DNA of 64,000 nucleotides, taken from contig JABSOM010000006.1 in NCBI GenBank assembly GCA_013215945.1, forward strand, positions 62,001 through 126,000. The letters are read 5' to 3'. The position numbers were made by a program, and so were the translations under genes. This DNA is from Campylobacteraceae bacterium (GTDB taxonomy: Bacteria > Campylobacterota > Campylobacteria > Campylobacterales > Arcobacteraceae). The notes beneath the pieces were generated by a model that saw only the letters and a program-made list of their open reading frames with translations, searched no databases and was not told the origin of the DNA. Below are positions 28,154 through 56,747 of this stretch, in pieces (the stretch's first letter is position 1; each line of letters starts with the position of its first letter).

Positions 28154-29002
28154 ATGATTTATGAAATAAGTAATAATATATATGCACTAAAAGTTGATTC
28201 TCTTGGGGCAGAACTTATTTCTGCTTCTTATAAGAAAGAAGAATATTTACACCAAAAAGAAAAAGTTTACTGGAACAGAAGCTCCCCTGTTTTATTTCCA
28301 ATTGTTGGAAAATTAAAAAACAATAACTACAAATACAATAATAAAAACTATTCTTTACCTATTCACGGCCTTGCAAGACACAAAGAGTTTACTTTTGTAA
28401 AACAAGATACAAATACTTTGGTATTTTCTTTAAAAGAAGACAGTAATTCATTAAAACACTATCCTTTTACTTTTTTTTTACAAATCACTTATACATTAAA
28501 AGAAGACTCTTTTGATATTAACTATGAAGTATCTTCAAACGAAGATATTCTATTTTCTTTAGGCGCTCACCCTGCTTTTATTTTAAAAGCTGGAATTGAT
28601 GAGTCTTATTTAGAATTTGAAGAAAAAGAAAATCTTGATTTATTGTGTTTAAATCTGGATAATGGTTGTATTTCTAAAACAAAAAAAGACTATTTAAATT
28701 CTAAGATACTTAAACTAGAAAAAAATATTTTCCAAAAAGATGCTCTCATTTTTGAAAATATAAAATCAAAAAAAGTATCTTTGAAAAACACCAAAAATAC
28801 TAAAAGTGTTAATATAAGTTATGAAGGTTTCCCTTTTATTGGTTTTTGGGCTCCAATGAATGCTGATTTTGTTTGTTTAGAACCTTGGTGTGGTATTGCA
28901 GATGATGACAATACTAAGTATATATTTAAAGACAAAAAAGGTATTATTTCTTTAAAAAAGAATAAACTATTTTCAAGAACTGTAGGAATTTCTTTTACTT
29001 AA
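28154..29002 (+). CDS. Aldose 1-epimerase family protein (LacX/YeaD-like)
   Basis: 282 residues of the galactose-mutarotase fold. Catalytic-site text: 'PIHGLARHKEF' and 'FSLGAHPAF' with the two histidines, late 'CLEPWCGIADD'. Interconverts alpha and beta sugar anomers, which supplies the anomer used by the dehydrogenase upstream. Last gene of the plus-strand operon; its stop codon overlaps the stop of the convergent Na/Pi gene by 2-3 bases, so no separate terminator space exists. Confidence 0.88.
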   Translation: MIYEISNNIYALKVDSLGAELISASYKKEEYLHQKEKVYWNRSSPVLFPIVGKLKNNNYKYNNKNYSLPIHGLARHKEFTFVKQDTNTLVFSLKEDSNSLKHYPFTFFLQITYTLKEDSFDINYEVSSNEDILFSLGAHPAFILKAGIDESYLEFEEKENLDLLCLNLDNGCISKTKKDYLNSKILKLEKNIFQKDALIFENIKSKKVSLKNTKNTKSVNISYEGFPFIGFWAPMNADFVCLEPWCGIADDDNTKYIFKDKKGIISLKKNKLFSRTVGISFT

Positions 29003-30777
29003 GAAACATCCAGTTCTTCATTGTTCTCTTTTACAAATAATATATTAGAAATTAACAATAGTTTTTTGCACAAATGGTAGGTTGTTGAAGCATCCGTTAT
29101 TAAAGATGATGCCATTTTCGCATTGATTTTATTTTCTCTTATAAGTGAGTCAATTTTACCATTACTTAAAATATCTAAAGCAGCTATATGCTCATTTATT
29201 TTATTCAATTTGCTGGTTTTTTTTTCAAAACTGTATTTATCATTTGCTAATAAATCTATTTCTTTTAAAGCATTAGCAAGTCCCATGCGCAAAACATTGT
29301 ATTCATTTTTTATAAAAGTATTTTTTGATTTTAAATATAAAGAAGTATTTTTCTCCAATTTTTTCACTTCTTTTACTCCATTAATAATCTCTTTTGCAGC
29401 AATTTTCAATTTGAATACTTTATGTATATCTTCTTTATTCATATATTTTTGGGATAAAGAAGCAAAATGCATAATATCCCCATATAAAGATTTCATATTT
29501 TTATTATAAATATTGTCTAAATAAATATGTTTATTCGATTTTTGAATGGTTTTTTCTAAATTCTTTTTACCAAAAACATCCGATTTATGTAAAGAAATGG
29601 TATGTAAAATAATCTTTTGGGAACTCTTATATAAGTGAACCAGTTCATTTTCTAAAGCTTTTAAAGAAATTACGGGCACGTCTATTAATTCTTTTGATAT
29701 AAACTTAGGTTTATAGGTGGCTTGGTATTTTTCTTTAATAAGAAACTTAGAAAAATATTCAAATTTAGAAATAAAAGGACTTAAAACCACTATGCCTATT
29801 AAATTAAAAAGAGTGTGAAAAAGCGAGAGTTTAATAGCATAATTATCATCATTTATTCCAAAATATACAGCAATAACATCAATAAAATCTTTTAGAAACA
29901 CTAAAAATACTAATGCAAATAATGCTGTTATTACATTAAATAATAGATGTACCAAAGCCAAACGTTTTCCATTTACATTTGAACCAAGGGAGGCTAAAAC
30001 AGCGGTAAAAGGAGTTCCTACATTAACTCCAATAGTTAGAGCGATAGCATTATCATAAGAAATTTGGCCCAAAGCAAGGGCTGTAATTATGAGTGCCATA
30101 GAAGCAGCGCTTGATTGCATAATAATTGTAGCAAATGCACCAATGAGAGCAAAAATAATAAAACCCAAATAACCATCAATTATATACAAAGAAAAGTCGA
30201 TATTTCCTTGCAAATTTTCAAAACCACTTTTCATATAAAAAATAGCTAAAAAAACGAACCCCAAACCTAAAAGTACGTTTCCTATTGCTTCATAGGTTCT
30301 GGTTTTTAAAAAAGTAGCTAAAACGCCTAAAATTATCATCGGCATTGCATAAGAAGAAATATTTAATTTTAATCCCAAAAATGCAACCAACCATGCTGTT
30401 GTTGTTGATCCTAAGTTTGCACCAAAAATTACGCCAATGGCTTGGGATAAAGTTATGATTTTAATACTTAAAAAAGAGATAATTATAATAGATATCAAAG
30501 AAGAACTTTGGACCAAGGTAGTTGCAAAAAAACCTGTAAACATTGATTTTGGTAAAGAATTGGTTGATTTTTCTAAAAAAGCTTCTAAACTATTTCCAGA
30601 AAATAATTTAAAACCTGCTTCCATAAATTTCATACCAATAATAAAAATAGCAATGCCAGCAAAAATAGTTTTCATATTTTCATCTGAAAACAAAAAATAC
30701 GATATAAATAAAATACCTAAAGGAAGTAAAACAATTTTAATTCTACTTTTTTCAATAATCGCATTTATTCCCATCAT
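28999..30777 (-). CDS. Na/Pi-cotransporter family protein with PhoU-like tail (NptA/YjbB type)
   Basis: 592 residues from ATG 30777, which has AAAGGA seven bases upstream; an in-frame ATG at 30837 lacks a ribosome site. Two inverted Na/Pi repeats ('GANLGSTTTAWLVAF' and 'IGVNVGTPFTAVLASLG') each carrying the Q-S-S motif ('TLVQSSSLISI', 'IIMQSSAASMAL'), then a helical cytoplasmic PhoU-like region (about 390-592). Probably a sodium-coupled phosphate transporter or exporter in the inner membrane. Stands alone between sugar and glycerol-phosphate operons; a role in balancing phosphate released from phospho-glycerol compounds is possible but unproven. Confidence 0.9.
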   Translation of the reverse strand: MMGINAIIEKSRIKIVLLPLGILFISYFLFSDENMKTIFAGIAIFIIGMKFMEAGFKLFSGNSLEAFLEKSTNSLPKSMFTGFFATTLVQSSSLISIIIISFLSIKIITLSQAIGVIFGANLGSTTTAWLVAFLGLKLNISSYAMPMIILGVLATFLKTRTYEAIGNVLLGLGFVFLAIFYMKSGFENLQGNIDFSLYIIDGYLGFIIFALIGAFATIIMQSSAASMALIITALALGQISYDNAIALTIGVNVGTPFTAVLASLGSNVNGKRLALVHLLFNVITALFALVFLVFLKDFIDVIAVYFGINDDNYAIKLSLFHTLFNLIGIVVLSPFISKFEYFSKFLIKEKYQATYKPKFISKELIDVPVISLKALENELVHLYKSSQKIILHTISLHKSDVFGKKNLEKTIQKSNKHIYLDNIYNKNMKSLYGDIMHFASLSQKYMNKEDIHKVFKLKIAAKEIINGVKEVKKLEKNTSLYLKSKNTFIKNEYNVLRMGLANALKEIDLLANDKYSFEKKTSKLNKINEHIAALDILSNGKIDSLIRENKINAKMASSLITDASTTYHLCKKLLLISNILFVKENNEELDVS

Positions 30778-30969
30778 TTCAATCCTTTTATTATACAAAA
30801 AAAGCGAATACTTATAAAAACTACTTATCATTAGCACTGTATTTTAAAAATAATTGTTTATATTTTTAATGTAAGTGTTTTTATATTACACATAGCCTTA
30901 ATATTTTTCTTTATTGTAACTCTTATGTAATTTAAAAATTTTATACTACGTGCAAGTCATTTTATATTA

Positions 30970-31150
30970 ACATGATAAGGTTATGATGATTAAAAGAATA
31001 TAAAAAAAAAGAATTACTTCTATATTTTATATACAATGGCTACAAAAAGTTGTAGTATTGACACAATTATTGTAAAAAGAAATCTTTTTAAGAAAGTTTT
31101 AAAATTCTATACGTCATTATAAATCATAACATTAGAATGTTATGATGTTA
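30970..31150. promoter_or_regulatory. Two operator-like sites of the proposed GntR regulon upstream of the Pot-type operon
   Basis: The gap 30778-31336 has no gene. At 30970-30990 lies ACATGATAAGGTTATGATG, nearly the same as 52103-52121 upstream of glpD copy 2 (ACATCATAAGGTTATAATG). At 31123-31146 is a perfect palindrome (arms ATCATAACATT, spacer AG), overlapping a match to the shared core at 31130-31150. Just before it, TACGTCAYTATAAA (31110-31123) recurs at 45736 and 52382 upstream of the phnD-like and glpS operons. Confidence 0.6.
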
Positions 31151-31336: not shown

Positions 31337-32401
31337 ATGAAAAAAACCATTTTATTAAGCGCTGGATTAATTGCTTTACTTTCAAGTACAAGTTTACTGG
31401 CACAAGATACCCTAAAAATACTAACGTGGAAAGGTTATGCACCTAAAGCTTTGGTTGAAAAATTCGAGAAACAAACAGGTCTTAAAGTTGAACTTACGTA
31501 TTCAAATAATGAAGAAATGATTGCAAAACTTAGAGCTACTAGAGGAGCTGGTTTTGACCTTGCACAACCCAGTCAAGATAGAATTTCATCTGTTCAAAAA
31601 AAATACAAAATTTATCAAGCTTTAGATTATTCTAAAATTGAAGAAAATCAAATTATTGATTCTATGTTAAAAGCAGTAAAAACAAATACTAAAGTTAAAG
31701 GTGAATCTTATGCAGTTCCTTTTAATTATGGTACTTCTGGTTTAATTATTAATAAAAGAATGGCTCCAAATGCGAGCGATTATAGTGATTTATTAAATAA
31801 AGAATATACAGGAAGAATTACATACAGATTAAAAAGACCTACTTTATTAGCAATAGCACTTTCAAAAGGTATGGATCCATTTTCTAAGTATAACGATACA
31901 AAAGCATACAAAACAATGATGGAAGGCGTAGCTAAAGATTTAATCAAAGCTAAACCTTATGCTAAAAACTATTATGCAAATGGAGATGCTTTACTTGAAC
32001 TGTTACGAACAGGTGAAGTATATGTAGCAATGGGTTGGGATAATGGCGGATGGAAACTTCATAAAGAGAATCCAGATATTGACTTTGTTGCTCCTAAAAG
32101 TGGTGCTTTAGGTTGGATTGATACTTTTGCAATTCCTGCAAAAGCTAAAAATGTTGAAGGTGCTTATAAATGGATTAACTTTATGTTAAAACCAGAAAAT
32201 GCGGCATACTTTACGAATAAAGAGAGTTATGGAACAGCTTCTAAAGGCGCTAATGAATTTTTAAATGCCGAAATTAAAGCAAACTTTGAGCGTTCTTACT
32301 CAAAAGCAGACCTTGATAATATCAATTGGTACCCACCAGTACCTGCAAAAATTGAAAAATTAGAAGGTAAGTTATTAGATAAAATTAAAGCATCAAGATA
32401 A
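31337..32401 (+). CDS. Periplasmic binding protein of a Pot-type (spermidine/putrescine-like) ABC transporter
   Basis: 354 residues from ATG 31337, preceded by GGAGAAG; the open frame extends 24 codons upstream through the leader without a ribosome site. Signal peptide about 1-23 ('MKKTILLSAG..LLAQ'). Mature protein is PotD/PotF-like: 'LKILTWKGYAPKALVEKFEKQ', 'VPFNYGTSGLIIN', 'VAMGWDNGGWK', 'PKSGALGWIDTFAIP'. The family also binds ligands other than polyamines. Here the operon ends in a glycerophosphodiesterase, which suggests a glycerophosphodiester such as glycerophosphocholine instead. A terminator follows at 32403. Confidence 0.88.
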   Translation: MKKTILLSAGLIALLSSTSLLAQDTLKILTWKGYAPKALVEKFEKQTGLKVELTYSNNEEMIAKLRATRGAGFDLAQPSQDRISSVQKKYKIYQALDYSKIEENQIIDSMLKAVKTNTKVKGESYAVPFNYGTSGLIINKRMAPNASDYSDLLNKEYTGRITYRLKRPTLLAIALSKGMDPFSKYNDTKAYKTMMEGVAKDLIKAKPYAKNYYANGDALLELLRTGEVYVAMGWDNGGWKLHKENPDIDFVAPKSGALGWIDTFAIPAKAKNVEGAYKWINFMLKPENAAYFTNKESYGTASKGANEFLNAEIKANFERSYSKADLDNINWYPPVPAKIEKLEGKLLDKIKASR

Positions 32402-32402
32402 A

Positions 32403-32424
32403 AAAAGAGGGTTTACCCTCTTTT
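32403..32424 (+). terminator. Terminator/attenuator between binding-protein gene and ATPase gene
   Basis: AAAAGAGGG, loop TTTA, complement ending CTCTTTT, right after the stop codon. Partial termination here would keep binding-protein mRNA above the membrane subunits. Confidence 0.75.
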
Positions 32425-32491
32425 CCAAATTTATGCAATATAAATAGCGTTTGTATTGCATAAATTTGTTTATTATAAACAAAGGGAATGA

Positions 32492-33556
32492 ATGAAGAAT
32501 GTATTAGAAATAAAGGATTTGCAAAAACAATTTGCAGACCATAATGCAGTAAATGGTATTGATTTTGTTGTAGAAGAAGGAAAGTTTTTTTCAATTCTAG
32601 GACCCTCAGGATGTGGGAAAACCACACTTCTGCGAATGATTGCAGGTTTTTTAGAACCAAGTTCTGGTTCTATTTTAATACGAGACGAAGAAATGATTGG
32701 AATTGCTCCTAATAATCGTCCAGTAAACTTAGTTTTTCAAAACTTGGCACTTTTCCCTATGATGAATGTTGAAGAAAATATTGCCTTTGGATTAAAACGA
32801 AAAAAACTTTCAAAAAAAGTGATTGAAGAAAAAGTAGCTGCTATTTTAGAAAAAGTTCATTTAAAAGGTTATGGAAAAAAAGAAGTATCACAACTTTCAG
32901 GAGGACAGAGACAACGTGTAGCAATTGCTAGATCACTTGTATTAGAACCTTCTATCTTACTACTTGATGAACCTTTAGGAGCGCTGGATTTAAAACTGCG
33001 AGAAACAATGAAAATTGAACTTAAAAAACTTCAAAAAGAATTTGGAACGACTTTTATTTATATTACTCACGATCAAAGTGAAGCTTTAGTAATGAGTGAT
33101 AAAGTAGCTGTTATGAACAATGGAGTTTTTGAGCAAATTGATACACCCAAAAATCTCTATTCAAACCCAAAAACATCTTTTGTAGCAGGTTTTGTTGGAG
33201 AATCCAATATATTCCAAGGAAAATTCACCCAAAATGATACGGTAGTTTTAGAGAATTCTTTGCAGTTAAAGGTTATTTGTATAGAAGAAATAAAAGATAC
33301 TTGTAAAGTATATATAAGGCCCGAAGCTATTATATTAATGCCAGAGAAGGAATTAACGGATTTAAATCGTTTTACCTTAGATATTAAAAGTATTTTATTT
33401 GATGGTTCTAATACAAAACTTCTAGCAATTATTCAAGGTACAAAAGAAGAAATTCAAGTATCACTTCCCCAAAACAGACAGTTTTCTCATATTAAAGTAG
33501 GAGATACAATAGAAGCAGCCGTACATTTTAATGACTGCAAAACATATAGGGCATAA
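32492..33556 (+). CDS. Pot-type ABC transporter ATPase
   Basis: 354 residues. Walker A 'GPSGCGKTTLLRM', Q-loop 'VFQNLALFP', signature '[15 protein letters not shown]', Walker B 'ILLLDEPLGALD', switch His 'ITHDQSEAL', then TOBE domain ('YIRPEAI'). PotA/FbpC-like. Ends 1 base before the first permease start (TAATATG). Cytoplasmic motor of the importer. Confidence 0.93.
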   Translation: MKNVLEIKDLQKQFADHNAVNGIDFVVEEGKFFSILGPSGCGKTTLLRMIAGFLEPSSGSILIRDEEMIGIAPNNRPVNLVFQNLALFPMMNVEENIAFGLKRKKLSKKVIEEKVAAILEKVHLKGYGKKEVSQLSGGQRQRVAIARSLVLEPSILLLDEPLGALDLKLRETMKIELKKLQKEFGTTFIYITHDQSEALVMSDKVAVMNNGVFEQIDTPKNLYSNPKTSFVAGFVGESNIFQGKFTQNDTVVLENSLQLKVICIEEIKDTCKVYIRPEAIILMPEKELTDLNRFTLDIKSILFDGSNTKLLAIIQGTKEEIQVSLPQNRQFSHIKVGDTIEAAVHFNDCKTYRA

Positions 33557-33557
33557 T

Positions 33558-34415
33558 ATGAAAAATGCAACATCTTTAGGGTTTTATATTTTTTTAGTGC
33601 CTATTATTTTATGGTTGGCTTTATTAATTGTAATTCCGCAAATTGAGCTCTTAATTATGTCTTTACGTTTTGAGAACGATGATGAAATAATGGTTTGGAG
33701 TTTTGAAAATTATAAAGAGTTTTTTAACAATGATATTTATTGGTTGACTTTTTTAAGAACAGCAATGTATGCTATTTTTGTTACTTTTTTAACTTTTATT
33801 ATTACATTTCCTATTGCTTTTTATATCACCAAAATAGTAAATAAACGTTACAGTGCTTTTTTAATTATACTTTTACTTTTACCTTTTTGGGTGAGTGAAC
33901 TTGTACGTGTTTATGGATGGACAATACTGTTGCGAGAAAGTGGTGTGATTAACTATTTTTTACAAAGTATGGGATTTACTAGTTCAGGTATTGAATTTTT
34001 ATACAATGATGCGGCCATGATTATGGGACTTGTTTATACTTCCATGTTATTTATGGCTGTGCCTTTAATTTCTTCTTTAGAAGGCATGGATGATTCATAT
34101 ATAGAAGCAGCACATGATTTAGGGGCTTCAAAACTAACAATATTCTTTAAAATAGTCATTCCTTATAGTGCCTCAGGTATTGTCTCTGGTTCTATTGTTG
34201 TTTTTATGTTAACACTTGGAAATTATTTGACCCCTAATTTAATGGGAGGTAAAAATTCTTTATGGTTTACAGAACAAATTTATAATGAATTTATAGCATC
34301 TTTAAATTGGAATCAAGGTGCAGCTTTTGGTTTTTTACTTTTGGCTTTATCCTCTTTTATTATTTGGTTAGGACTTAAACTCACCAAACAAAATCTATCT
34401 AAGGCTTTATCATGA
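33558..34415 (+). CDS. Pot-type ABC transporter permease 1 (PotB-like)
   Basis: 285 residues from ATG 33558; the longer frame from 33531 would overlap the ATPase gene. About six membrane segments, EAA loop 'EAAHDLGASKLTIFFK'. Overlaps permease 2 by 4 bases (ATGA). Confidence 0.93.
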   Translation: MKNATSLGFYIFLVPIILWLALLIVIPQIELLIMSLRFENDDEIMVWSFENYKEFFNNDIYWLTFLRTAMYAIFVTFLTFIITFPIAFYITKIVNKRYSAFLIILLLLPFWVSELVRVYGWTILLRESGVINYFLQSMGFTSSGIEFLYNDAAMIMGLVYTSMLFMAVPLISSLEGMDDSYIEAAHDLGASKLTIFFKIVIPYSASGIVSGSIVVFMLTLGNYLTPNLMGGKNSLWFTEQIYNEFIASLNWNQGAAFGFLLLALSSFIIWLGLKLTKQNLSKALS

Positions 34416-35266
34416 TTCGTACCCTACCCAATTCTAAGGCCTATTCAATAGGTTTTAAACTTTATGTTATAGCTTTTTTTATTTTTTTATTTGCACCTTT
34501 AATGGTTACATCTGTTTTGGCTTTTAATGATTCTAATTTCCCTTCTTTACCTTGGAATGGTTTTACTTTGGACTGGTTTATAAGTGATACAGAAGAGCGC
34601 CTTGGAATATTAAAAGATACTCAGAATCTATTGTCTATTTGGGTTTCAGCTCAAACTGCCTTTTTTGTATCTATTTCCTCATTAATTATAGGTACGCTGG
34701 CCGCATTTTTATTTGAAAGAGAACACTTTAGATACAAACAATTTTTATTCTTTTTAGCCCTAACACCTTTAGTTATTCCAGGTGTTATTTTAGGAATATC
34801 TTTATTATTGTCTGTTAATTCTACGGGTTTATTTTTAGAAGATAATTTTGCTTTGGACTTAGAGATTTTACGCCCTAGTTTTTGGTTGGTTGTACTTGGA
34901 CAATTTGCTTTTATTACTACTTTTGTATTATTAGTTGTATCTGCAAGACTTAAAAAATTTGATAATTCGCTGGAAGAAGCAGCCCTTAATTTAGGTGCTA
35001 GTAAATTTCAAAGCATTCGTTATATAATTATTCCTTTTTTAAAACCTGCTTTAATAGGAGCTGGTGCCGTGGCATTTTTAATGAGTTTTGAAAATTTTAA
35101 TACTACTTTATTTTTAATTGGTTCTGAAACTACTTTACCCGTAAACTTATATTTGCAAGTAAGAGATGGAAGTACTCCTGTTATTAATGCTATTTCATTT
35201 TTACTTATTATGGGAACCTCTGTACTTGCTATCTTAAATTTAATTTTTTCAAAGAAAAAATCATGA
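34412..35266 (+). CDS. Pot-type ABC transporter permease 2 (PotC-like)
   Basis: 284 residues, about six membrane segments, EAA loop 'EEAALNLGASKFQSI'. 4-base overlaps on both sides show it is coupled to permease 1 and to the phosphodiesterase gene. Confidence 0.93.
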   Translation: MIRTLPNSKAYSIGFKLYVIAFFIFLFAPLMVTSVLAFNDSNFPSLPWNGFTLDWFISDTEERLGILKDTQNLLSIWVSAQTAFFVSISSLIIGTLAAFLFEREHFRYKQFLFFLALTPLVIPGVILGISLLLSVNSTGLFLEDNFALDLEILRPSFWLVVLGQFAFITTFVLLVVSARLKKFDNSLEEAALNLGASKFQSIRYIIIPFLKPALIGAGAVAFLMSFENFNTTLFLIGSETTLPVNLYLQVRDGSTPVINAISFLLIMGTSVLAILNLIFSKKKS

Positions 35267-36066
35267 TAGGGTTTTATGATACGCTAGAGAACAAATCCAA
35301 GCTAATTGCAGCACATAGGGGGTTTAGGGCAATTCGTCCTGAAAATACTATGAGCGCTTTTAAAGCAGCTCTTGGAAAATGTGATTTTATTGAATTTGAT
35401 GTAACCTTATGTAAAGATGGTATTGCTGTTGTTATTCATGACAAAACCTTAAAACGTACATCTAATATCATTAGAAATAAAAAAACACATAAAAAAAAGA
35501 AAATACATGATTTTACCTATCAAGAATTATTAATGCTTGATTTTGCTTCTTGGTTTAAAGAAAAAGATCCTTTTGATACTATTAAAGATAAAAGAGTCAA
35601 TAAAAATGACATCAAAGCAGATCAAATTCTTACACTAACACAAGTATTAGAGTTTTGTAAAAAAAAGAACCTTTTAGCAAATATTGAAATAAAAAATATG
35701 AAAAAAACACCTTTTCATAAAAAAATAGTCAAAGAAATCATAAAAATAGTTCAAGAAACACATATGCAAGAAAAGGTACTTTTATCTTCTTTTAATCATT
35801 CTTATTTAAAAAAAGCAAAAAAGATTGCGCCTGATATACACAGAGCCGCTTTGGTTGAAAAAAAACATCCAAAAGATTTATTGCTTTATCTTAAAAAACT
35901 AGATGTCAAAGCGTATAATTGTGAAGATTCTTTGGTTGATAAAAAACTGGTAAAACTTATAAAAGATGCTAATTATAAAATAAATGTTTTCACTGTTAAT
36001 AATAAAAAGAGAAAAAAAGAACTTTTTTCCCTGGGAGTTGATGCTATTTTTACGGATTTTTTATAA
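35263..36066 (+). CDS. Glycerophosphodiester phosphodiesterase (UgpQ-like, cytoplasmic)
   Basis: 267 residues. GDPD active-site residues all present: H18-R19 in 'IAAHRGF', E27-N28 in 'RPENTMSAF', E44/D46 in 'FIEFDVTLCKDG', H59 in 'VVIHDKTLKRT', and a late 'LANIEIK'. Hydrolyses glycerophosphodiesters to glycerol 3-phosphate plus an alcohol. No signal peptide, so it works on imported diesters. Start overlaps the permease by 4 bases, giving an uptake-and-hydrolysis unit similar in logic to ugpBAEC-ugpQ. Its product is the substrate of the two GlpD copies downstream. Lysine-rich in the second half, as expected at this base composition. Confidence 0.93.
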   Translation: MIGFYDTLENKSKLIAAHRGFRAIRPENTMSAFKAALGKCDFIEFDVTLCKDGIAVVIHDKTLKRTSNIIRNKKTHKKKKIHDFTYQELLMLDFASWFKEKDPFDTIKDKRVNKNDIKADQILTLTQVLEFCKKKNLLANIEIKNMKKTPFHKKIVKEIIKIVQETHMQEKVLLSSFNHSYLKKAKKIAPDIHRAALVEKKHPKDLLLYLKKLDVKAYNCEDSLVDKKLVKLIKDANYKINVFTVNNKKRKKELFSLGVDAIFTDFL

Positions 36067-36077: not shown

Positions 36078-36224
36078 GATGCAATTCTTAATAAAAAACT
36101 TGTAGAAAAGTTAAAAAATGCTAATTATAAAGTAAATGTATTTACAGTCAATAACGATAAAAGAAAAAAAGAGCTTTATGCTATGGGAGTAGATGGAATT
36201 TTCACAGATTTTTTAAAGATTTAA
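36078..36224 (+). pseudogene. Ghost of a second GDPD gene (last 48 codons)
   Basis: Open frame without start, 11 bases after the intact GDPD stop. Its translation (ending 'MGVDGIFTDFLKI') parallels the end of the intact protein (ending 'LGVDAIFTDFL') over about 45 residues, with 'NANYKVNVFTVNNDKRKKEL' against 'DANYKINVFTVNNKKRKKEL'. The two differ at many synonymous sites, so this is an old tandem paralogue that lost its first 80 percent. Confidence 0.85.
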
Positions 36225-36353: not shown

Positions 36354-37064
36354 TTATGATTTAAAAGTTTCTTCAAGCTCTTTCCACCCATTTGTAAGGT
36401 GTTCTCTTAATGCTTTTTCAGCTTCATCAGGATCTCTGTTTAAAATAGCTTCAAATATTTTTTTATGTGCATAATAATTGACTTCATTTCTTTGTTCATG
36501 CATTTTCATTTTTTTCCAATAACCAGATAACCAATTTACAAAAGCCTTCTGCACCAAAGGGAATATTGGATTATTAGGAATTGCATAAAGAATAGAGTGA
36601 AATAATACATCTGTAGTATGGAATATATCTGAATCATTTATTGCAAGGTAATTGGCTTCTAAAGCCTGTCTTAATGCTTTTATATCATCCTTATTGGCAT
36701 GAATTGCAGCTTCACGTACTAACATAGCTTCAATCATTAATCGCGTATAAAATAGATTTTTCACCCCATCAGCTTCACTTAAAAGATGAGATACTATCCC
36801 ACTAATAGAATTTAAAGCAGAATCAATATCTGGTTTTCTTGCAACGGGTCTAAATCTTGGTTTTGTAACTACTAAACCTTTACTTGACAATGTAGCAATG
36901 GCTTCTCTAACAACCGTTCTACTTACATTATATTGATTCATTAATTCTCTCTCAGCCGGCAAAGTTTCCCCATCTTTTATATTATTGGATAATATTCTTG
37001 CTTCTAATTGATCTACTAAATAATCAGAAATTCTTCCTTTCTGAGCTGATTCTGTTTTATTCAC
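36354..37064 (-). CDS. GntR-family regulator, FadR/FCD subgroup
   Basis: 236 residues if translation starts at GTG 37064, which has AAAGGAG nine bases upstream; the frame also allows ATG 37100, without a ribosome site. N-terminal winged helix: 'LEARILSNNIKDGETLPAERELM', 'NVSRTVVREAIATLSSKGLV'. C-terminal all-helical FCD domain with histidine/aspartate metal sites ('TTDVLFHSILY', 'HKKIFEAI'). Divergent from tctCBA; two TGGT-N3-ACCA dyads in the shared gap are likely its operators. Probably represses the transporter until an organic acid is present. Confidence 0.92.
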   Translation of the reverse strand: MNKTESAQKGRISDYLVDQLEARILSNNIKDGETLPAERELMNQYNVSRTVVREAIATLSSKGLVVTKPRFRPVARKPDIDSALNSISGIVSHLLSEADGVKNLFYTRLMIEAMLVREAAIHANKDDIKALRQALEANYLAINDSDIFHTTDVLFHSILYAIPNNPIFPLVQKAFVNWLSGYWKKMKMHEQRNEVNYYAHKKIFEAILNRDPDEAEKALREHLTNGWKELEETFKS

Positions 37065-37120
37065 AATTATTATCTCCTTTAAATTTATTAATTGTACCAT
37101 AATTACATATTGTCCTAGTT

Positions 37121-37290: not shown

Positions 37291-37307
37291 ATTTGGTCAT
37301 ACCAAAT
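37291..37307. promoter_or_regulatory. FadR-type operator 2
   Basis: ATTTGGTCATACCAAAT, perfect 7-base arms around CAT, about 94 bases before the tctC start. Same TGGT-N3-ACCA core as operator 1. It follows an AGTATAAGAT stretch that could be a -10 element for tctC. The rest of the 336-base gap is plain AT-rich DNA. Confidence 0.7.
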
Positions 37308-37400: not shown

Positions 37401-38363
37401 ATGAAACAAGTAAAACAAATTAGAAGTGTACTATTGGCTATAGGACTTTCTGTAAGTACTGCATTTGCAGCATTCCCTGAAAAAGACATCACGTTAATTG
37501 TACCATGGTCAGCAGGTGGTGGAACAGATACAATTGCAAGAGCATTGGTTAAAAATGCGAAAAAGCACATTGGTGTAAATGTAAATGTAGTTAATAAAAC
37601 AGGCGGTCAAGGTGTTGTTGGTATGAGTGCAGCTAGACTTGCAAGGCCAGATGGTTATACAGTTGGTATGATTACTTTTGGACTTAGTACCTATAAATTA
37701 ATGGGTTTATCAAAACTTAACTTTCGTGATTTTAAATTATTACAATTATTAAATCAAAGTGCTCCTGCTTTAAGTGTAAAAGCTGATTCTAAATGGTCAT
37801 CAATTGCTGATGTTGTTAAATATGCAAAAGCAAATCCTGGCAAAGTAACAATTGGTCATACAGGTGCTGGTGTAGCTTGGCATTTATCTGCTGCTTCTTT
37901 AGGTATTAAAAATGGTATTGAATTTAACTTTATTCCTTTTGATGGAGGAGCTCCTACACGTTCTGCTCTACTTGGTGGACATATTGATTTAGCAGCAACG
38001 GGTATTGATGAAATGAAGCAATTAAAGGAAGCGGGTCAAGTTAATATTATTGTAACAGATGATACAAAACGTCATCCTTTATTCCCAAATGTTCCAACAC
38101 TTAAAGAAGAAGGTTTCGCATCTGATGCTCCTATCTTAGATTGGCGTGGATTAGCATTGGCTAAAAATGTACCAGCTGATCGTACAAAAATTTTAGAAGC
38201 TGGATTCAAAAAAATGTTTGATGATCCTGAATTTAGAGAATTTACAAAAAAAGTTGGTCTTAACTTAGTGTATGCAGATGCTAAAGGTTTTAAAGAATTT
38301 TTAGAAAATATGGAAAATGTACTTAAACCAACATTAGATTCTGTTGGTCTACTTAAAAAGTAA
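37401..38363 (+). CDS. tctC: Tripartite tricarboxylate transporter binding protein (TctC/Bug family)
   Basis: 320 residues, signal peptide about 1-23 ('...STAFA'). Bug-family phrases: 'FPEKDITLIVPWSAGGGTDTIAR', 'VVNKTGGQGVVG', 'HTGAGVAWHLSA', 'VPTLKEEGF'. Periplasmic receptor for carboxylates. First gene of tctCBA, divergent from the FadR-type regulator. Ligand not predictable; the neighbouring beta-hydroxyacid dehydrogenase suggests a hydroxy acid. Confidence 0.93.
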   Translation: MKQVKQIRSVLLAIGLSVSTAFAAFPEKDITLIVPWSAGGGTDTIARALVKNAKKHIGVNVNVVNKTGGQGVVGMSAARLARPDGYTVGMITFGLSTYKLMGLSKLNFRDFKLLQLLNQSAPALSVKADSKWSSIADVVKYAKANPGKVTIGHTGAGVAWHLSAASLGIKNGIEFNFIPFDGGAPTRSALLGGHIDLAATGIDEMKQLKEAGQVNIIVTDDTKRHPLFPNVPTLKEEGFASDAPILDWRGLALAKNVPADRTKILEAGFKKMFDDPEFREFTKKVGLNLVYADAKGFKEFLENMENVLKPTLDSVGLLKK

Positions 38364-38369
38364 TTTTTG

Positions 38370-38825
38370 ATGTATAACAAGACTATTGATGTTTGTAGTG
38401 GTATTTTCTTAAGCTTATTAAGTATTGCCATTTATTTATATGCAGAACAACAATATGTGGGAAGTGGAGTTAACCGTTACGGGCCTAATTTCTTCCCACA
38501 GGTCGTATCTGTAATGTTGCTCTTAGCTTCTCTTACCCTTATTTATCAAGCATTAAAAGGGAATTCCTTAAAAAACTTTGAGACAATAAATAAAAAAGGT
38601 TTTATTCGTACTTCTATTGTTTTAGGATTTGCCATTGCTTATTTATTTTTGATGCAAGTTGCAGGATTTTATCTTGCTACGGGAATATTTTTATTTGTAA
38701 CTATGAAGTTTTTAGGTCTAAAAAGTTATTTAGTTACCTTGATAGTTAGTGCATGTGTTGCTACTATTGTTTTTGGAATTTTTAAAGTGTTTTTAAAAAT
38801 ACCTTTACCAGAAGGGCTCTTTTGA
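38370..38825 (+). CDS. tctB: Tripartite tricarboxylate transporter small membrane subunit (TctB)
   Basis: 151 residues from ATG 38370 (a TTG codon directly precedes it in frame). About four membrane segments, 'GPNFFPQVVSVMLL' is typical of TctB. Only 6 bases after tctC. Confidence 0.88.
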   Translation: MYNKTIDVCSGIFLSLLSIAIYLYAEQQYVGSGVNRYGPNFFPQVVSVMLLLASLTLIYQALKGNSLKNFETINKKGFIRTSIVLGFAIAYLFLMQVAGFYLATGIFLFVTMKFLGLKSYLVTLIVSACVATIVFGIFKVFLKIPLPEGLF

Positions 38826-38876
38826 AAAAGTTTATAAAAAATTTAAAACAAGAATTTTATTTTATAGGAGAATGCA

Positions 38877-42027: not shown

Positions 42028-42876
42028 ATGTATTATAAAAAACTATTTTTCCCAATTGGTGGTGGAGATGAGTTAGAAGAAAGAATTTATGGTGCACTAT
42101 TAATCGCAAAAAAACTTAATATAAAATTAGATATTTTAAAGTCAAGTTTAAAAGACAATAACACACTTTATAAAAGATATGCAATTCCTGAAAAAATCAT
42201 AAATGAGCTTGACCAAATCGTTGATATGAAGTATAAAGAAGAAAATGAAGTTTTTTTAGAACTTTTTAATAAGGTAGCAAAAGACTTAGCAGTCGATATT
42301 TCTATTGATACTAATAAAAATAATGCTTTGGTTCGTGTAAAAGTCTTAGAAGGATTAAGAAGTAGTTTAGTAGAACAAGAATCAAAATTTTGTGATCTTG
42401 TAATTGCTGCTGCTCCACCCTCTGGTCTTACTACTGCAACATTTGAAACTGCCGTTTTAAAAAGTGGTAAACCTGTTTTAATGTTTCCAAGAGTTTTAAG
42501 AAAGTTTTCTACTGATTCAATAATTATTGGATGGAATAATTCTACAGAAGCATCACGTGCACTCACTTCTTCAATTGAGCTATTAAAAACTGCTAAAAAA
42601 GTACATATAATTTCATCAATAGAATATGTGGAAAATTTAGATGTTTTGGAAAATCTTATTGATTATTTAAAAGAGCATGATATATGTGCCACTTATGAAA
42701 TTATTAAAACTACTAGAATACCAGGACAAGCATTATTAAATGCTGCAATAAATGGAGATTTTGACATAATAATAGCTGGAGCATACGGACATAAAGGCCT
42801 AAAAGAACTTATGTTTGGTGGTGCTACTAGGTATCTACTAGAAAATACAAGTATTCCTGTATTTATGTCTCATTAA
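42028..42876 (+). CDS. Universal stress protein with two Usp domains
   Basis: 282 residues. N-terminal Usp half (about 1-150, 'LVIAAAPPSG...SGKPVLMFPR') and C-terminal half (about 160-282) ending in the ATP-binding pattern G-x2-G-x9-G as 'GAYGHKGLKELMFGGATRYL' (20 residues). The second half therefore probably binds ATP, the first lacks that motif. Single-gene unit, hairpin at 42931 downstream. General stress role by family. Confidence 0.88.
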   Translation: MYYKKLFFPIGGGDELEERIYGALLIAKKLNIKLDILKSSLKDNNTLYKRYAIPEKIINELDQIVDMKYKEENEVFLELFNKVAKDLAVDISIDTNKNNALVRVKVLEGLRSSLVEQESKFCDLVIAAAPPSGLTTATFETAVLKSGKPVLMFPRVLRKFSTDSIIIGWNNSTEASRALTSSIELLKTAKKVHIISSIEYVENLDVLENLIDYLKEHDICATYEIIKTTRIPGQALLNAAINGDFDIIIAGAYGHKGLKELMFGGATRYLLENTSIPVFMSH

Positions 42877-42979: not shown

Positions 42980-43705
42980 TTAAATATTTGTTACTTTATC
43001 ACTAAATAACATTATTTTATGTTTATACATATCTGATTTTATCACCAAATCAGAGTATTCAACTGCTTTCCCTTTTTTATCAGAAGACAATCTATGAAGA
43101 GATAAAACAGGTGTTCCTTCTTCTATTTCAAGCTTTTTAGCTTCTGATTTATTTGCAGCTTTTGCTTCTACTGTTTCTTCTGCTGTAAAAAATTCAATAT
43201 TGTATTCTTTTTTTAAGTAGGTATATAAAGAATCTTCATCTAATTTATGTTCTATATTAGGAACAGTATTAATATCAAAATAATTAATCATTAAAGCAAA
43301 AGGAATTTTATTTAACAATCTTGTTCTTCTAATACATATAAGCGTATCACACTTTAATAAATCTTTTACAAAATGTTCTTCTTTAATTATTTCAAAGGTT
43401 ATAGATTTGGTACTTAAGAATTTGTTTTGTTTTGCAAGCCTTTGAGTTAAAGAACCAATAGCATTTGCATCATAAAGAATTTTTTCTTCTGTTACAAAAG
43501 TTCCTTTTCCTTGTTTTTTAACAACAACATTACTTCTTTCTAATTCCTCAATTGCTTTACGTACTGTAATGCGGGAAACCTTATACATAGCCTCTAGTTT
43601 GCCTTCAGCAGGTATTAGATCATTAACTTTATAATTACGTTGAATGTCTTCTAAAAGTTTTTCTTTTAATTGAAGATAAAGAGGTATACCATTTTTTATA
43701 AACAA
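42980..43705 (-). CDS. GntR-family regulator, HutC/UTRA subgroup
   Basis: 241 residues from TTG 43705, preceded by AAAAGGA; an in-frame TGA six bases upstream excludes a longer form. N-terminal winged helix 'PLYLQLKEKLLEDI...IPAEGKLEAMYKVSRITVRKAIEEL', then 'KKQGKGTFVTEE', then a UTRA ligand domain (about 85-235). Lies beside glpD copy 1 and the phn-type operon. An operator-like direct repeat (43781) is in its own promoter, and related sites precede the glycerol and glycerophosphodiester operons, so it is the prime candidate regulator of that regulon. A 5' fragment of a second copy lies at 50323. Confidence 0.92.
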   Translation of the reverse strand: MFIKNGIPLYLQLKEKLLEDIQRNYKVNDLIPAEGKLEAMYKVSRITVRKAIEELERSNVVVKKQGKGTFVTEEKILYDANAIGSLTQRLAKQNKFLSTKSITFEIIKEEHFVKDLLKCDTLICIRRTRLLNKIPFALMINYFDINTVPNIEHKLDEDSLYTYLKKEYNIEFFTAEETVEAKAANKSEAKKLEIEEGTPVLSLHRLSSDKKGKAVEYSDLVIKSDMYKHKIMLFSDKVTNI

Positions 43706-43780: not shown

Positions 43781-43800
43781 TCATAACATTATAACATTAT
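43781..43800. promoter_or_regulatory. Operator-like direct repeat upstream of the GntR gene
   Basis: Two adjacent ATAACATT units. On the minus strand this reads ATAATGTTATAATGTTAT, which carries the same core as sites at 45755 and 52402. One unit is missing in the duplicated copy at 50421. Suggests autoregulation. Confidence 0.6.
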
Positions 43801-43831
43801 TTATTTACTATAGGATATTTTTACTTCTAGA

Positions 43832-43884: not shown

Positions 43885-45444
43885 TTATAAGTTATTGTTT
43901 AATATTCTTAGAGCAGTTGTTTTTTCATTTTCTTTTTTCTCATCGTTCCACTTAAAATACTCAGCCATTATATTAACAACTGTATCTAATGATTCTTTAG
44001 CAGCATCTTTATCTATTAGAGCTAAACTTGTTCGTCTTACTAAAAAATCCAAAGGTTTTTTAACAAATTCATATTCTAAACAATACATTAATTCAGCATG
44101 TGTATAAAGATAGTTTTTGTTGATATACTCATTTTTATTCCCAGAAGAAAGAACCAAAGAAGTTTTATCACCATACAAAGAAACAAGATGTTGAAATGTT
44201 TTATCTTCATTATTATTGTCTTTTTTGAAAGAATCAAAATTTTCACTTCCAATTAATTTTAATTTTTTTGTAAAACATTTATTTTTATTTAAATCAAACT
44301 TTTTATCAAGATAATCTACTACTTCTTGTGACATTTTTCTATACGTAGTCCATTTTCCACCAATAATACTTACCAAACCAGATTTTGAGCTAGTAATTAC
44401 ATGATCACGTACTATTGTTGATGTATCTGCATCTTTATCAGGCGCAACCAAAGGTCTAATTCCACACCAAGAAGATAAAATTTCACTCTTATTAATTTTT
44501 AATGAAAAATATATTTCTAAGTGTTTTAAAATATATTCAATATCTTTATCACTTACTTCTGGTCTTTCTTGCAGTTTTGTACTTTCATCTGTAGTACCTA
44601 CTAAACATTTTCCCATCCAAGGTAAAATAAATAATACTCTTCCATCTTCCGTTTTTGGTATCATTAAACCTTCACCTAAAGGCAAGTATTTTTTGTCCAA
44701 TACAATATGAATTCCAGAACTTAAATCCAGCATCTTTTTTGCTTCTTTATCATCTAAGCGTCTAATATTATCTGAAAATACTCCCGTAGCATTTACAATC
44801 ATGTCTGCTTCTACTGTGTATTCTTCATTATTGATTTTATCTTTTATTCTTAAACCACTAACTTTTTCATTCTCATATTCAAAACCAAGTACTTCTTGAT
44901 AGTTTTTACAAACAGCTCCATGTTTTTGCGCCGTTTGCAAAAGAGATACATTTAGTTTACTGTCATTAAATGATCCATCATAGTATTTAACCCCACCAAC
45001 AAGGCCATCTTTTTTTATAATAGGAAAAGATTTTATCATGGTATCTTTAGAAACAATAGAAGATCTTCCTAGACCTTTTTTTCCTGCAACTAAATCATAT
45101 AAAGTTAAACCAATAAACATATACGGCAGTTCCCACCATTTATATATAGGAGTTACAAGTGTTAATCTTGAACATAAATGCGGTGCATTCTTAAGTAAAC
45201 GTGATCTTTCTTTTAAACCTTCTTTGACCAATAAGAACTGATCTTTGTTTAATTTTTTTACTGCTGCTTCTAAATAACGAACGCCGCCATGAACTAATTT
45301 AGTACTTCTTGAGCTTGTACCTTCTGAAAAATCATTTTTTTCTAATAATAATGTTTTAATTCCCCTAGAAGCTGCATCCAATGCTATTCCACTTCCAGTT
45401 GCTCCACCACCTATAATAATAAGTTCATATTTGTTTTTTTTCAT
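43885..45444 (-). CDS. glpD: Aerobic glycerol-3-phosphate dehydrogenase, copy 1
   Basis: 519 residues. FAD-binding 'IIIGGGATGSGIALDAASRG', 'EGTSSRSTKLVHGGVRYLE', 'SSWCGIRPLV', 'GGKWTTYRKM', and a C-terminal domain. Membrane-associated flavoenzyme oxidising glycerol 3-phosphate to dihydroxyacetone phosphate with electrons to quinone. Only three residues differ from the copy at 50518 (here K in 'TMIKSFPI', E in 'LGFEYENE', E in 'IMAEYFKW'). Transcribed away from the phn-type operon; operator-like sites lie just upstream (45481). It may serve glycerol 3-phosphate from that operon or from the GDPD unit. Confidence 0.96.
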   Translation of the reverse strand: MKKNKYELIIIGGGATGSGIALDAASRGIKTLLLEKNDFSEGTSSRSTKLVHGGVRYLEAAVKKLNKDQFLLVKEGLKERSRLLKNAPHLCSRLTLVTPIYKWWELPYMFIGLTLYDLVAGKKGLGRSSIVSKDTMIKSFPIIKKDGLVGGVKYYDGSFNDSKLNVSLLQTAQKHGAVCKNYQEVLGFEYENEKVSGLRIKDKINNEEYTVEADMIVNATGVFSDNIRRLDDKEAKKMLDLSSGIHIVLDKKYLPLGEGLMIPKTEDGRVLFILPWMGKCLVGTTDESTKLQERPEVSDKDIEYILKHLEIYFSLKINKSEILSSWCGIRPLVAPDKDADTSTIVRDHVITSSKSGLVSIIGGKWTTYRKMSQEVVDYLDKKFDLNKNKCFTKKLKLIGSENFDSFKKDNNNEDKTFQHLVSLYGDKTSLVLSSGNKNEYINKNYLYTHAELMYCLEYEFVKKPLDFLVRRTSLALIDKDAAKESLDTVVNIMAEYFKWNDEKKENEKTTALRILNNNL

Positions 45445-45480
45445 GGATTCTATTCCTTATTTTCTAACTACATCATAAGG

Positions 45481-45775
45481 CTATAATGTTATGGGTTAGA
45501 TTATAAGGTCATAACCTTTTAAAGTAGATTAAACTAAAAGATTGCATTATTTTTTAATAAAACCCTCATAATATTTAAGTAAATAACGCCAAACAAAAAA
45601 ACAAAATAATTGATTTATTAGCCTTGGATGTCCCTTCTAGTCGCTTTAAATAATAAAATAAATATTATTTGAATTAAAATAGTTTTTAAGAACTTTTGAA
45701 ATTTAGAAACAATTTAAGCTATCTTTAAAATTTGATACGTCACTATAAAACTATCATTATGATGTTATAATGTTG
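45481..45775. promoter_or_regulatory. Divergent glpD1/phnD control region with two operator-like sites
   Basis: The 414-base gap 45445-45858 has no gene. CTATAATGTTATGGGTTAG (45481-45499) lies 37 bases before glpD copy 1, followed by a GGTTA/TAACC dyad to 45515. CATTATGATGTTATAATGTT (45755-45774) lies 84 bases before the binding-protein gene, with TACGTCACTATAAA just upstream. The second contains a TATAAT that could be the -10 element. Confidence 0.6.
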
Positions 45776-46990: not shown

Positions 46991-47074
46991 ATTTAAAAGA
47001 GGTTAGTATGTCGAAAACAAAAAGTTATATTGATTTAAAAGAGGTCCCTATGTCGAAAACAAAAAGTTATCTTG
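46991..47074 (+). repeat. 42-base in-frame tandem duplication of the phnC start region
   Basis: 46991-47032 and 47033-47074 are two copies of one unit containing the ribosome site (AAAAGAGG), the ATG and the first codons (MSKTKSY). They differ at about five positions. Being 14 codons long, either ATG gives a functional frame. Confidence 0.9.
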
Positions 47075-49387: not shown

Positions 49388-49397
49388 ATAGGAAATT

Positions 49398-50517: not shown

Positions 50518-52077
50518 TTATAAGTTATTGTTTAATATTCTAAGAGCAGTAGTTTTTTCATTTTCTTTTTTCTCATCGTTCCACTTAAAATACAAAGCCA
50601 TTATATTAACAACTGTATCTAATGATTCTTTTGCAGCATCTTTATCTATTAGTGCTAAACTTGTTCGTCTTACTAAAAAATCCAAAGGTTTTTTAACAAA
50701 TTCATATTCTAAACAATACATTAATTCAGCATGTGTATAAAGATAGTTTTTGTTGATATACTCATTTTTATTCCCAGAAGAAAGAACCAAAGAAGTTTTA
50801 TCACCATACAAAGAAACAAGATGTTGAAATGTTTTATCTTCATTATTATTGTCTTTTTTGAAAGAATCAAAATTTTCACTTCCAATTAACTTTAATTTTT
50901 TAGTAAAACATTTATTTTTATTTAAATCAAACTTTTTATCAAGATAATCAACTACTTCTTGTGACATTTTTCTATACGTAGTCCATTTTCCACCAATAAT
51001 ACTTACCAAACCAGATTTTGAGCTGGTAATTACATGATCACGTACTATTGTTGATGTATCTGCATCTTTATCAGGCGCTACCAAAGGTCTAATCCCACAC
51101 CAAGAAGATAAAATTTCACTCTTATTAATTTTTAATGAAAAATATATTTCTAAGTGTTTTAAAATATACTCAATATCTTTGTCACTTACTTCTGGTCTTT
51201 CTTGAAGTTTTGTACTTTCATCCGTAGTTCCTACTAAACATTTTCCCATCCAAGGTAAAATAAATAATACTCTTCCATCTTCCGTTTTTGGAATCATTAA
51301 ACCTTCACCTAAAGGCAAGTATTTTTTGTCCAATACAATATGAATTCCAGAACTTAAATCCAGCATCTTTTTTGCTTCTTTATCATCTAAGCGTCTAATA
51401 TTATCTGAAAATACTCCCGTAGCATTTACAATCATGTCTGCTTCTACTGTGTATTCTTCATTATTGATTTTATCTTTTATTCTTAAACCACTAACTTTTT
51501 CATTTTCATATAAAAAACCAAGTACTTCTTGATAGTTTTTACAAACAGCTCCGTGTTTTTGTGCCGTTTGCAAAAGAGATACATTTAATTTACTGTCATT
51601 AAATGATCCATCATAGTATTTAACCCCACCAACTAAACCATCTTTTTTTATAATAGGAAAAGAGTTTATCATGGTATCTTTAGAAACAATAGAAGATCTT
51701 CCTAGCCCTTTTTTTCCTGCAACTAAATCATATAAAGTTAAGCCAATAAACATATACGGCAGTTCCCACCATTTATATATAGGAGTAACTAGTGTTAATC
51801 TTGAACATAAATGCGGTGCATTCTTAAGTAAACGTGATCTTTCTTTTAAACCTTCTTTAACCAATAAGAACTGATCTTTGTTTAATTTTTTTACTGCTGC
51901 TTCTAAATAACGAACCCCGCCATGAACTAATTTAGTACTTCTTGAGCTTGTACCTTCTGAAAAATCATTTTTTTCTAATAATAATGTTTTAATTCCCCTA
52001 GAAGCTGCATCCAATGCTATTCCACTTCCAGTTGCTCCACCACCTATAATAATAAGTTCATATTTGTTTTTTTTCAT
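50518..52077 (-). CDS. glpD: Aerobic glycerol-3-phosphate dehydrogenase, copy 2
   Basis: 519 residues with the same FAD and substrate motifs as copy 1 and three differences: N in 'TMINSFPI', L in 'LGFLYENE', L in 'IMALYFKW'. Both Glu-to-Leu changes need two base substitutions. Divergent from glpSTPQUV and upstream of glpK in the block, the arrangement known for rhizobial glycerol loci (glpD with glpSTPQUV), so this copy is the natural partner of glycerol uptake. Confidence 0.96.
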   Translation of the reverse strand: MKKNKYELIIIGGGATGSGIALDAASRGIKTLLLEKNDFSEGTSSRSTKLVHGGVRYLEAAVKKLNKDQFLLVKEGLKERSRLLKNAPHLCSRLTLVTPIYKWWELPYMFIGLTLYDLVAGKKGLGRSSIVSKDTMINSFPIIKKDGLVGGVKYYDGSFNDSKLNVSLLQTAQKHGAVCKNYQEVLGFLYENEKVSGLRIKDKINNEEYTVEADMIVNATGVFSDNIRRLDDKEAKKMLDLSSGIHIVLDKKYLPLGEGLMIPKTEDGRVLFILPWMGKCLVGTTDESTKLQERPEVSDKDIEYILKHLEIYFSLKINKSEILSSWCGIRPLVAPDKDADTSTIVRDHVITSSKSGLVSIIGGKWTTYRKMSQEVVDYLDKKFDLNKNKCFTKKLKLIGSENFDSFKKDNNNEDKTFQHLVSLYGDKTSLVLSSGNKNEYINKNYLYTHAELMYCLEYEFVKKPLDFLVRRTSLALIDKDAAKESLDTVVNIMALYFKWNDEKKENEKTTALRILNNNL

Positions 52078-52103: not shown

Positions 52104-52422
52104 CATCATAAGGTTATAATGTTATGGATTAGATTATAAGGTCATAACCTTTAAAACTAGATTAAACTAAAATATTATATTACTTTTTAATAAAATCCAC
52201 ATGCTATTTAAGTAAACTAACACTAAGATAACGCCCAAACAAAAATTCAATATAATTAATCTTTTATACTTAGACTGACCTTATAGTGGCTTTAAATAAT
52301 AATAAAAATATTATCTGCATTAAAATGTTTTTTAAAAACTTTTGAAATTTAGGAACAATTTAAGCTATATTTAAATTTTGATACGTCACTATAAAGGCTA
52401 TCATTATAATGTTATAACGTTG
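52104..52422. promoter_or_regulatory. Divergent glpD2/glpS control region with two operator-like sites
   Basis: The 421-base gap 52078-52498 has no gene. ACATCATAAGGTTATAATG (52103-52121) with following TTATGG precedes glpD copy 2 by about 30 bases. CATTATAATGTTATAACGTT (52402-52421) precedes glpS by 77 bases, with TACGTCACTATAAA at 52382. Same pair and order as in the glpD1/phnD gap. Confidence 0.6.
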
Positions 52423-53587: not shown

Positions 53588-53600
53588 AAGGAGAAAATTT

Positions 53601-55549: not shown

Positions 55550-55552
55550 ACA

Positions 55553-56383: not shown

Positions 56384-56392
56384 GGAAGAATT

Positions 56393-56671: not shown

Positions 56672-56679
56672 AATTTAAT

Positions 56680-56702: not shown

Positions 56703-56747
56703 CTTTTTACATAATTCCACACCTAAGTATTAATTTAATATTTAGGC

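Follow-up and report, generated by a model that had tools for sequence, protein, structure and literature searches.

A polyamine-type ABC transporter operon as a candidate importer of glycerophosphodiesters with an amine head group in a Campylobacteraceae bacterium

Main finding

A stretch of 64,000 nucleotides from a Campylobacteraceae bacterium (assembly GCA_013215945.1, contig JABSOM010000006.1, positions 62,001 to 126,000), hereafter called the window, carries at 31337-36066 a five-gene operon that encodes, in this order, a PotD-like binding protein, PotA-, PotB-, and PotC-like subunits of an ATP-binding cassette (ABC) transporter, and a UgpQ-like glycerophosphodiester phosphodiesterase (GDPD). 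Judging from sequence and predicted structure, we consider it fairly probable that the operon encodes a Pot-type ABC importer in which a former polyamine pocket now accepts a glycerophosphodiester carrying an amine head; the most likely ligand is sn-glycero-3-phosphoethanolamine (GPE). The wider claim, that a widespread clade of "polyamine" importers in Campylobacterota, Desulfobacterota, and Gammaproteobacteria would be GPE importers by charge reversal of the Pot pocket, is one that we hold with slightly more belief than doubt. Many bacteria have phosphatidylethanolamine as their main phospholipid, and GPE arises when it is deacylated. In the open-access literature, we found no Pot-type glycerophosphodiester importer and no bacterial importer dedicated to GPE.

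Operon and binding protein

The binding protein, the ATPase, and the two permeases match NCBIfam Pot models, all below the curated equivalog cut-offs (for the binding protein against the PotD equivalog, 128.7 bits with a cut-off of 582). The binding protein, which has a signal sequence, matches PotD (2.6e-31) and Lmo0810 (5.8e-38) in phmmer searches, and its AlphaFold2 model (predicted local distance difference test score 92.6) has the fold of a Pot receptor. The nearest solved structures are polyamine receptors, with Z scores of 30-34 and 26-28% identity; UgpB is found by fold alone (Z 26.1), and membership of the Pot family is apparent from both fold and sequence, that of the CUT1 sequence family of UgpB is not. 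Nor does the protein match GpxB in sequence, the structures of which (9LF9 and 9LFB) are absent among its matches.

The GDPD of the operon lacks a signal sequence and scores 158.8 bits against PF03009 (cut-off 23.6) and 151.5 bits against the UgpQ-type model NF006989, which is below the cut-off of 264. Its catalytic residues, H18-R19, E44, D46, and H59, are in place in an alignment with 2PZ0 and 2OTD. A further GDPD gene, whose product has a signal sequence, lies on a different contig of the same genome. An ATGA at 35263-35266 is common to the potC stop and the GDPD start, and the PotB and PotC genes overlap in the same way. The start of the PotB-like permease is best set at 33558, where MKNATS aligns with MKNTTS of E. 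coli PotB. The original prediction had named these genes with their coordinates, a polyamine-transporter-like binding protein and subunits, and a cytoplasmic GDPD closing the operon with a 4-base overlap; the same five genes were found by open reading frame and profile analysis, the Pot models, phmmer, and the fold agree on the family, and the overlap and the missing signal peptide are as described above.

The hairpin 3' of the binding-protein gene (Table 1) is probably an attenuator or partial terminator. Right behind it, at 32426-32468 and between the binding-protein and ATPase genes, lies a near-perfect palindrome with 19-bp arms.

Charge reversal in the pocket

Spermidine is contacted in PotD by the acids E36, D168, E171, and D257 and by the aromatics W34, Y37, W229, and W255 (PMC11414716; grouping after PMC8666671). 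The pocket was mapped on an alignment of 55 relatives with three Pot proteins; residue numbers below are those of the window protein, and PotD numbers are those of the E. coli reference. The four acids correspond to G33, K166, T169, and D262. The position of E36 is Gly in all 55 relatives save one with Ser, and that of E171 is Thr, Leu, Ile, Val, or Ala. D168 is replaced by Lys in 55/55 and D257 is kept as Asp in 55/55. Two motifs, Q80-D81-R82 (QDR) and Y163-R164-L165-K166-R167-P168 (YRLKRP), are invariant, and K32 is found in 51/55. The aromatic box is kept as W, Y, W, and W in every relative (W31, Y34, W234, and W260 in the window protein).

The acid quartet of polyamine importers is therefore broken, which argues against polyamine import as the function of the operon, while the aromatic box is intact; its invariance and that of D262 favour a ligand with a cationic head. 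The pocket is most naturally read as an anion site next to a cation site that has been kept, the arrangement that a phosphodiester carrying an amine head would require. Such a pocket appears unsuited to a polyamine but may be compatible with a phosphate ester bearing a cationic head group, the side chains presumed to face the ligand being placed by their PotD positions.

Linkage to phosphodiesterases and glycerol 3-phosphate genes

Eighty loci (designated below by L numbers) with binding proteins 60-98% identical were obtained by scanning GTDB genomes; they come from Campylobacterota, Desulfobacterota, and Gammaproteobacteria. The closest relatives are in Arcobacter-type metagenome-assembled genomes, with 98% identity in L004. 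Among the 47 informative loci, which have enough flank, a GDPD gene is present in 24, from three bacterial groups; a GDPD or a calcineurin-type phosphodiesterase in 27; and either of these or a gene for sn-glycerol 3-phosphate (G3P) metabolism in 28. If genes were placed at random, ~0.3% of loci would be expected to have a GDPD within 2.5 kb. The gene follows at 0-35 bp in most loci of Campylobacterota and other proteobacteria, is directly downstream in Desulfovibrio-type genomes as well, and lies upstream by ~1 kb in Desulfobulbaceae-type loci; as its position varies among groups, the linkage has survived rearrangement. In 60 related Campylobacterota genomes, all seven transporters with >70% identity and a long enough contig have a GDPD ~3.6 kb away, compared with none of the five more distant PotD-like proteins of the same genomes (Fisher 0.0013).

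A calcineurin-type phosphodiesterase is encoded downstream or divergently in Desulfuromusa-, Thiotrichaceae-, and some Desulfobacula-type loci, where the neighbours are GlpR-like, GlpB-like, and GlpA-like, the last scoring 230 bits against the type 2 G3P oxidase model. Where this enzyme stands in a locus that lacks a GDPD, it is accompanied by GlpA-like, GlpR, or GlpD genes. It replaces or adjoins the GDPD in L064, L069, L076, L079, L060, L063, L065, and L075, and is possibly a non-orthologous replacement with a GpdQ-like glycerophosphodiesterase activity. A glpD gene directly precedes the transporter genes in L008, L018, L038, and L047 and follows them in L048 and L053. L008 belongs to the cultivable Sulfurospirillum arcachonense DSM 9755.

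Two other observations concern these loci. L005, on a contig filed under Nonlabens dokdonensis, has an Arcobacter-type binding protein (84% identical) and neighbour, and the contig is probably mis-binned. A Na/Pi-cotransporter-like gene (28999-30837) is divergent from the window operon, likewise in L004, L005, and L006, and lies nearby in L007; it might let phosphate out of the cell while G3P is used as a carbon source.

Operator-like sites

The operator-like site 5' of the operon has as its core a perfect inverted repeat, CATAACATtagaATGTTATG / CATAACATTAGAATGTTATG, at 31125-31144, which is 212 to 193 bp before the binding-protein gene. The related sites at the two glpD genes differ from it at 2-3 positions, the pot site being a true inverted repeat. 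With up to 3 mismatches, the motif has 7 matches in the window compared with 0.95 expected, and 7 was never reached in 100 shuffles. Across the entire 3.24-Mb genome, a relaxed motif, CATAANNTTANAATGTTATG, is found with no more than one mismatch at five places, of which four are inside the window, at the pot, glpD1, glpD2, and GntR genes (chance of four in five, ~7e-7). Because of these window and genome-wide counts, the sharing of operator-like sites by the operon and the glpD operons, as proposed at the outset, is more than chance. The pot site is kept 5' of the same operon in L004, and in L006 with 2 mismatches. Plain 18-mer matching between upstream regions was not above shuffles; the gapped motif alone was. 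The GntR-family gene, with its own motif copy, would be a natural candidate for encoding the site-binding protein.

The fifth genomic place, a perfect motif copy, is directly 5' of a UspA-family gene that lies on another contig (L084 4144-5031; G000:C5:127411), and a similar Usp gene in the window (42028-42876) is without the motif. No good copy was found upstream of the ethanolamine operon of L086 or in the intergenic regions of L007 and L009, both described below, so that a shared control of import and ethanolamine breakdown lacks support.

Ethanolamine genes and the head group

The gamma-glutamyl route for ethanolamine is described from Streptomyces coelicolor, where the first step (GlnA4) has been shown and the rest proposed (PMC6529630). 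L007 and L009, with binding proteins 77-79% identical, carry divergent genes for a glutamine synthetase (GS)-like enzyme, an aldehyde dehydrogenase (ALDH), an iron-type alcohol dehydrogenase (ADH), and a class I glutamine amidotransferase (GATase). The window's genome has the same set (50-68% identical) on another contig, L086, in an operon ending in an ethanolamine permease (486 bits, NCBI equivalog cut-off 382), and all four enzymes of the gamma-glutamyl set thus occur together in L007, L009, and L086. The GS-like enzyme is below the cut-offs of both glutamine synthetase and gamma-glutamylputrescine synthetase. Desulfobulbaceae-type loci have a related amidotransferase gene between those of the GDPD and the binding protein; with it, L057 and L062 carry an ALDH gene, and several other loci one for a short-chain dehydrogenase.

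A genome was scored as having ethanolamine genes if it had at least one of three markers, a GS-like enzyme >60% identical, EutB, or a permease above the cut-off. Among the 60 Campylobacterota genomes, a marker is present in 7/8 carriers of the transporter and in 1/52 others (Fisher 1.6e-7; counted by genera, 2.4e-4), values that overstate independence since the compared genomes are related. In genera g15 and g19, sister genomes differ in the transporter and the ethanolamine markers together. No choline dehydrogenase (betA) is above the cut-off in the 60 genomes and none is matched at all in the 8 carriers, a result with which a choline route by GbsA/GbsB-like enzymes is possibly compatible; gamma-glutamylputrescine synthetase is likewise above the cut-off in none of the 60. 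Puu-type putrescine catabolism, considered for the GS/ALDH/GATase set, was rejected on account of the ADH, the ethanolamine permease, and this lack of gamma-glutamylputrescine synthetase above the cut-off.

The original prediction of import of a glycerophosphodiester with a cationic head by a polyamine-labelled family gains support from the linkage, the pocket, the operator-like sites, and the ethanolamine association. Its example ligand, glycerophosphocholine, is less well supported than GPE, which fits better with the ethanolamine operon and permease and with genomes without betA.

Proposed mechanism

In the mechanism that we propose, the phosphate of GPE would be held by new cationic residues of the periplasmic protein, among R164, K166, R167, K32, and R82, and the amine by the inherited aromatic box together with D262. 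The PotABC-like subunits would bring the intact diester inside at the expense of ATP, and the co-translated cytoplasmic GDPD would split it into G3P and ethanolamine. G3P could then enter glycolysis via GlpD, whose operons carry the same operator-like site, and ethanolamine could enter the gamma-glutamyl route (GS-like enzyme, iron-type ADH, ALDH, and GATase) encoded elsewhere in the genome.

Several points weigh against this mechanism. The pocket map rests on an alignment with 27-30% identity, the intact aromatic box can be mere inheritance, and the basic scoop residue of PotC is retained (K223 to Arg). Some loci, for example L015, L021, L037, and L043, have neither phosphodiesterase nor glp genes in the flanks covered. 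The ethanolamine operon lies next to the transporter in no more than two genomes, which are closely related, and is unlinked in the window's genome, one carrier (G025) has none of the three ethanolamine markers, and the relatedness of the compared genomes has been mentioned above.

Alternative ligands

A real but clearly less favoured possibility is a glycerophosphodiester importer of broad head-group range, taking glycerophosphocholine, GPE, glycerophosphoglycerol, and glycerophosphoinositol, for which the ethanolamine association would reflect the commonest bacterial lipid. GDPDs are usually tolerant of the head group, and the GDPD linkage extends over many lineages, that of ethanolamine genes over few. 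The invariant D262 and aromatic box, however, favour a cationic head, and the transporter co-occurs with ethanolamine genes.

Import of glycerol phosphates, namely G3P or sn-glycerol 1-phosphate (G1P), with the GDPD acting in lipid turnover or in a second pathway, seems improbable. It would account for the GlpD, GlpA-like, and GlpR neighbours in many loci and for the operator-like sites common to the operon and glpD. Nevertheless, the window already encodes a GpxB relative (45859-46914), so that a second G3P/G1P importer would be redundant, and the direct coupling to a cytoplasmic phosphodiesterase, which is swapped elsewhere for an unrelated phosphodiesterase, points to a diester.

We attach little probability to an importer dedicated to glycerophosphocholine. 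The aromatic box is the usual choline cage, and the linked iron-type ADH and ALDH weakly match GbsB and betaine-aldehyde dehydrogenase models, far below the cut-offs; against this stand the carriers without any betA match and the GS-like enzyme, GATase, and ethanolamine permease in one operon, which fit ethanolamine.

Least probable of all is a true polyamine importer with a GDPD beside it by accident. In its favour are the receptor kinship, the likeness of the GS-like/ALDH/GATase set to Puu putrescine catabolism, and the still basic PotC scoop residue; against it are the loss of three of the four amine-binding acids, one of them reversed to Lys in every relative, phosphodiesterase linkage across three groups, a linked operon with an alcohol dehydrogenase and an ethanolamine permease, and the lack, noted above, of any gamma-glutamylputrescine synthetase above the cut-off in the 60 genomes. 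A 2-aminoethylphosphonate importer, suggested by phnS and phnT2 models among the matches, was rejected (binding protein 24 bits vs 393; no phosphonate enzymes among recurrent neighbours).

Genomic setting

The window also encodes a glycerol-type ABC importer, a glycerol kinase, and two glpD genes. The gene at 45859-46914 (+), next to glpD1, is of the PhnD family and scores 251 bits to GpxB (9LF9/9LFB), a G1P/G3P-binding protein described only recently, with 84 for the next best; with 47008-50165, it would probably constitute a glycerol-1/3-phosphate importer. Gpx (PMC12718374) has so far been reported from Alpha-, Gamma-, and Betaproteobacteria and haloarchaea.

The ABC operon at 52499-60130 encodes a binding protein of 567 aa, two permeases, and two UgpC-like ATPases, and glpK comes after it. 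This operon presumably resembles the rhizobial glycerol importer GlpSTPQV. Given the GpxB relative, the glycerol-type importer, the glycerol kinase, and the two glpD genes, the region looks like an island for scavenging lipid backbones, to which the GPE importer would supply the diester.

Apart from the glp regulon stands a FadR/NanR-type palindrome, TTTGGTCATACCAAA, at 37292-37306, between a divergent NanR-like GntR gene (36354-37100) and a tripartite tricarboxylate transporter-like operon (37401-40388).

Table 1. Coordinates of the operon, the operator-like sites, and associated genes in the window
Feature	Position	Strand	Basis and remarks
Weaker second operator-like copy, 3 mismatches	30964..30987	.	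Same sequence in L004
Operator-like inverted repeat AAATCATAACATTAGAATGTTATGATGT 5' of operon	31121..31148	.	Motif search; similar sites at glpD1, glpD2, and GntR gene
Periplasmic substrate-binding protein, Pot fold, cationic pocket; putative ligand GPE or related glycerophosphodiester	31337..32401	+	Profile, alignment, model
Hairpin AAAAGAGGGTTTACCCTCTTTT 3' of binding-protein gene	32403..32424	+	Putative attenuator/partial terminator, from position
PotA-like ATPase	32492..33556	+	Profile matches
PotB-like permease	33558..34415	+	Profile and alignment; gate positions of E. coli PotB (PMC11414716) changed: S113>E, Y223>L, D226>N, K241>Y
PotC-like permease	34412..35266	+	Profile and alignment; scoop-loop K223 = R, D198 = E (positions PMC11414716)
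Cytoplasmic GDPD, UgpQ-like	35263..36066	+	Profile, alignment; ATGA overlap with potC
Remnant of second GDPD copy, last ~41 codons, 68-70% identical	36093..36215	+	Directly after intact gene; kept also in sister genome G001
GntR/HutC-family gene, candidate regulator of pot/glpD sites	42980..43705	-	Motif copy 77 bp upstream of start
Operator-like site upstream of GntR gene	43782..43801	.	Motif search
glpD1, FAD-dependent glycerol-3-phosphate dehydrogenase	43885..45444	-	Preceded by an operator-like site
Operator-like site CATAAGGCTATAATGTTATG upstream of glpD1	45474..45493	.	Motif search
glpD2, second glycerol-3-phosphate dehydrogenase	50518..52077	-	Preceded by an operator-like site
Operator-like site CATAAGGTTATAATGTTATG upstream of glpD2	52107..52126	.	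Motif search

Implications and comparison with known systems

If the proposal is true, the spermidine/putrescine label would have to be corrected for a clade that many bacteria of marine and sediment habitats carry, and the Pot pocket could switch from acidic to cationic. Next to Ugp and Gpx, there would be a third independent way to recycle lipid backbones, with phosphorus, carbon, and nitrogen from phosphatidylethanolamine debris all entering the cell in one molecule.

The operon resembles PotABCD and PotFGHI (TC 3.A.1.11; E. coli PotD 1POT and PotF 1A99) in gene set, domain order, fold, PotB/PotC permeases, aromatic box, and the residue equivalent to D257. It differs from them in the replacement of E36, D168, and E171, in the new invariant cationic motifs, in the GDPD that closes it, and in the operator-like sites in common with glpD.

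With E. coli UgpBAEC and UgpQ, it shares the genetic coupling of an ABC importer to a cytoplasmic GDPD and, as proposed, the logic of a diester that is imported, cut inside, and fed onward as G3P. M. tuberculosis UgpB is reported to bind glycerophosphocholine (PMC12718374). UgpB, however, belongs to the CUT1 (sugar) family, whereas the whole ABC module of the window operon is of the Pot family and would thus be an independent solution.

Lipid-backbone scavenging is also the role of the glycerol-1/3-phosphate importer GpxBCD, the binding protein of which, unlike that of the window operon, is of the PhnD family, has no sequence match to it, and binds monoesters; no GDPD is reported with it in the text consulted (PMC12718374). 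Finally, the GS-like enzyme, dehydrogenase, ALDH, and GATase of L007, L009, and the window's own genome are like those of the gamma-glutamyl ethanolamine pathway (GlnA4, PMC6529630), except that the alcohol step here would use an iron-type ADH rather than a short-chain dehydrogenase and that the ethanolamine operon can adjoin the candidate glycerophosphodiester importer.

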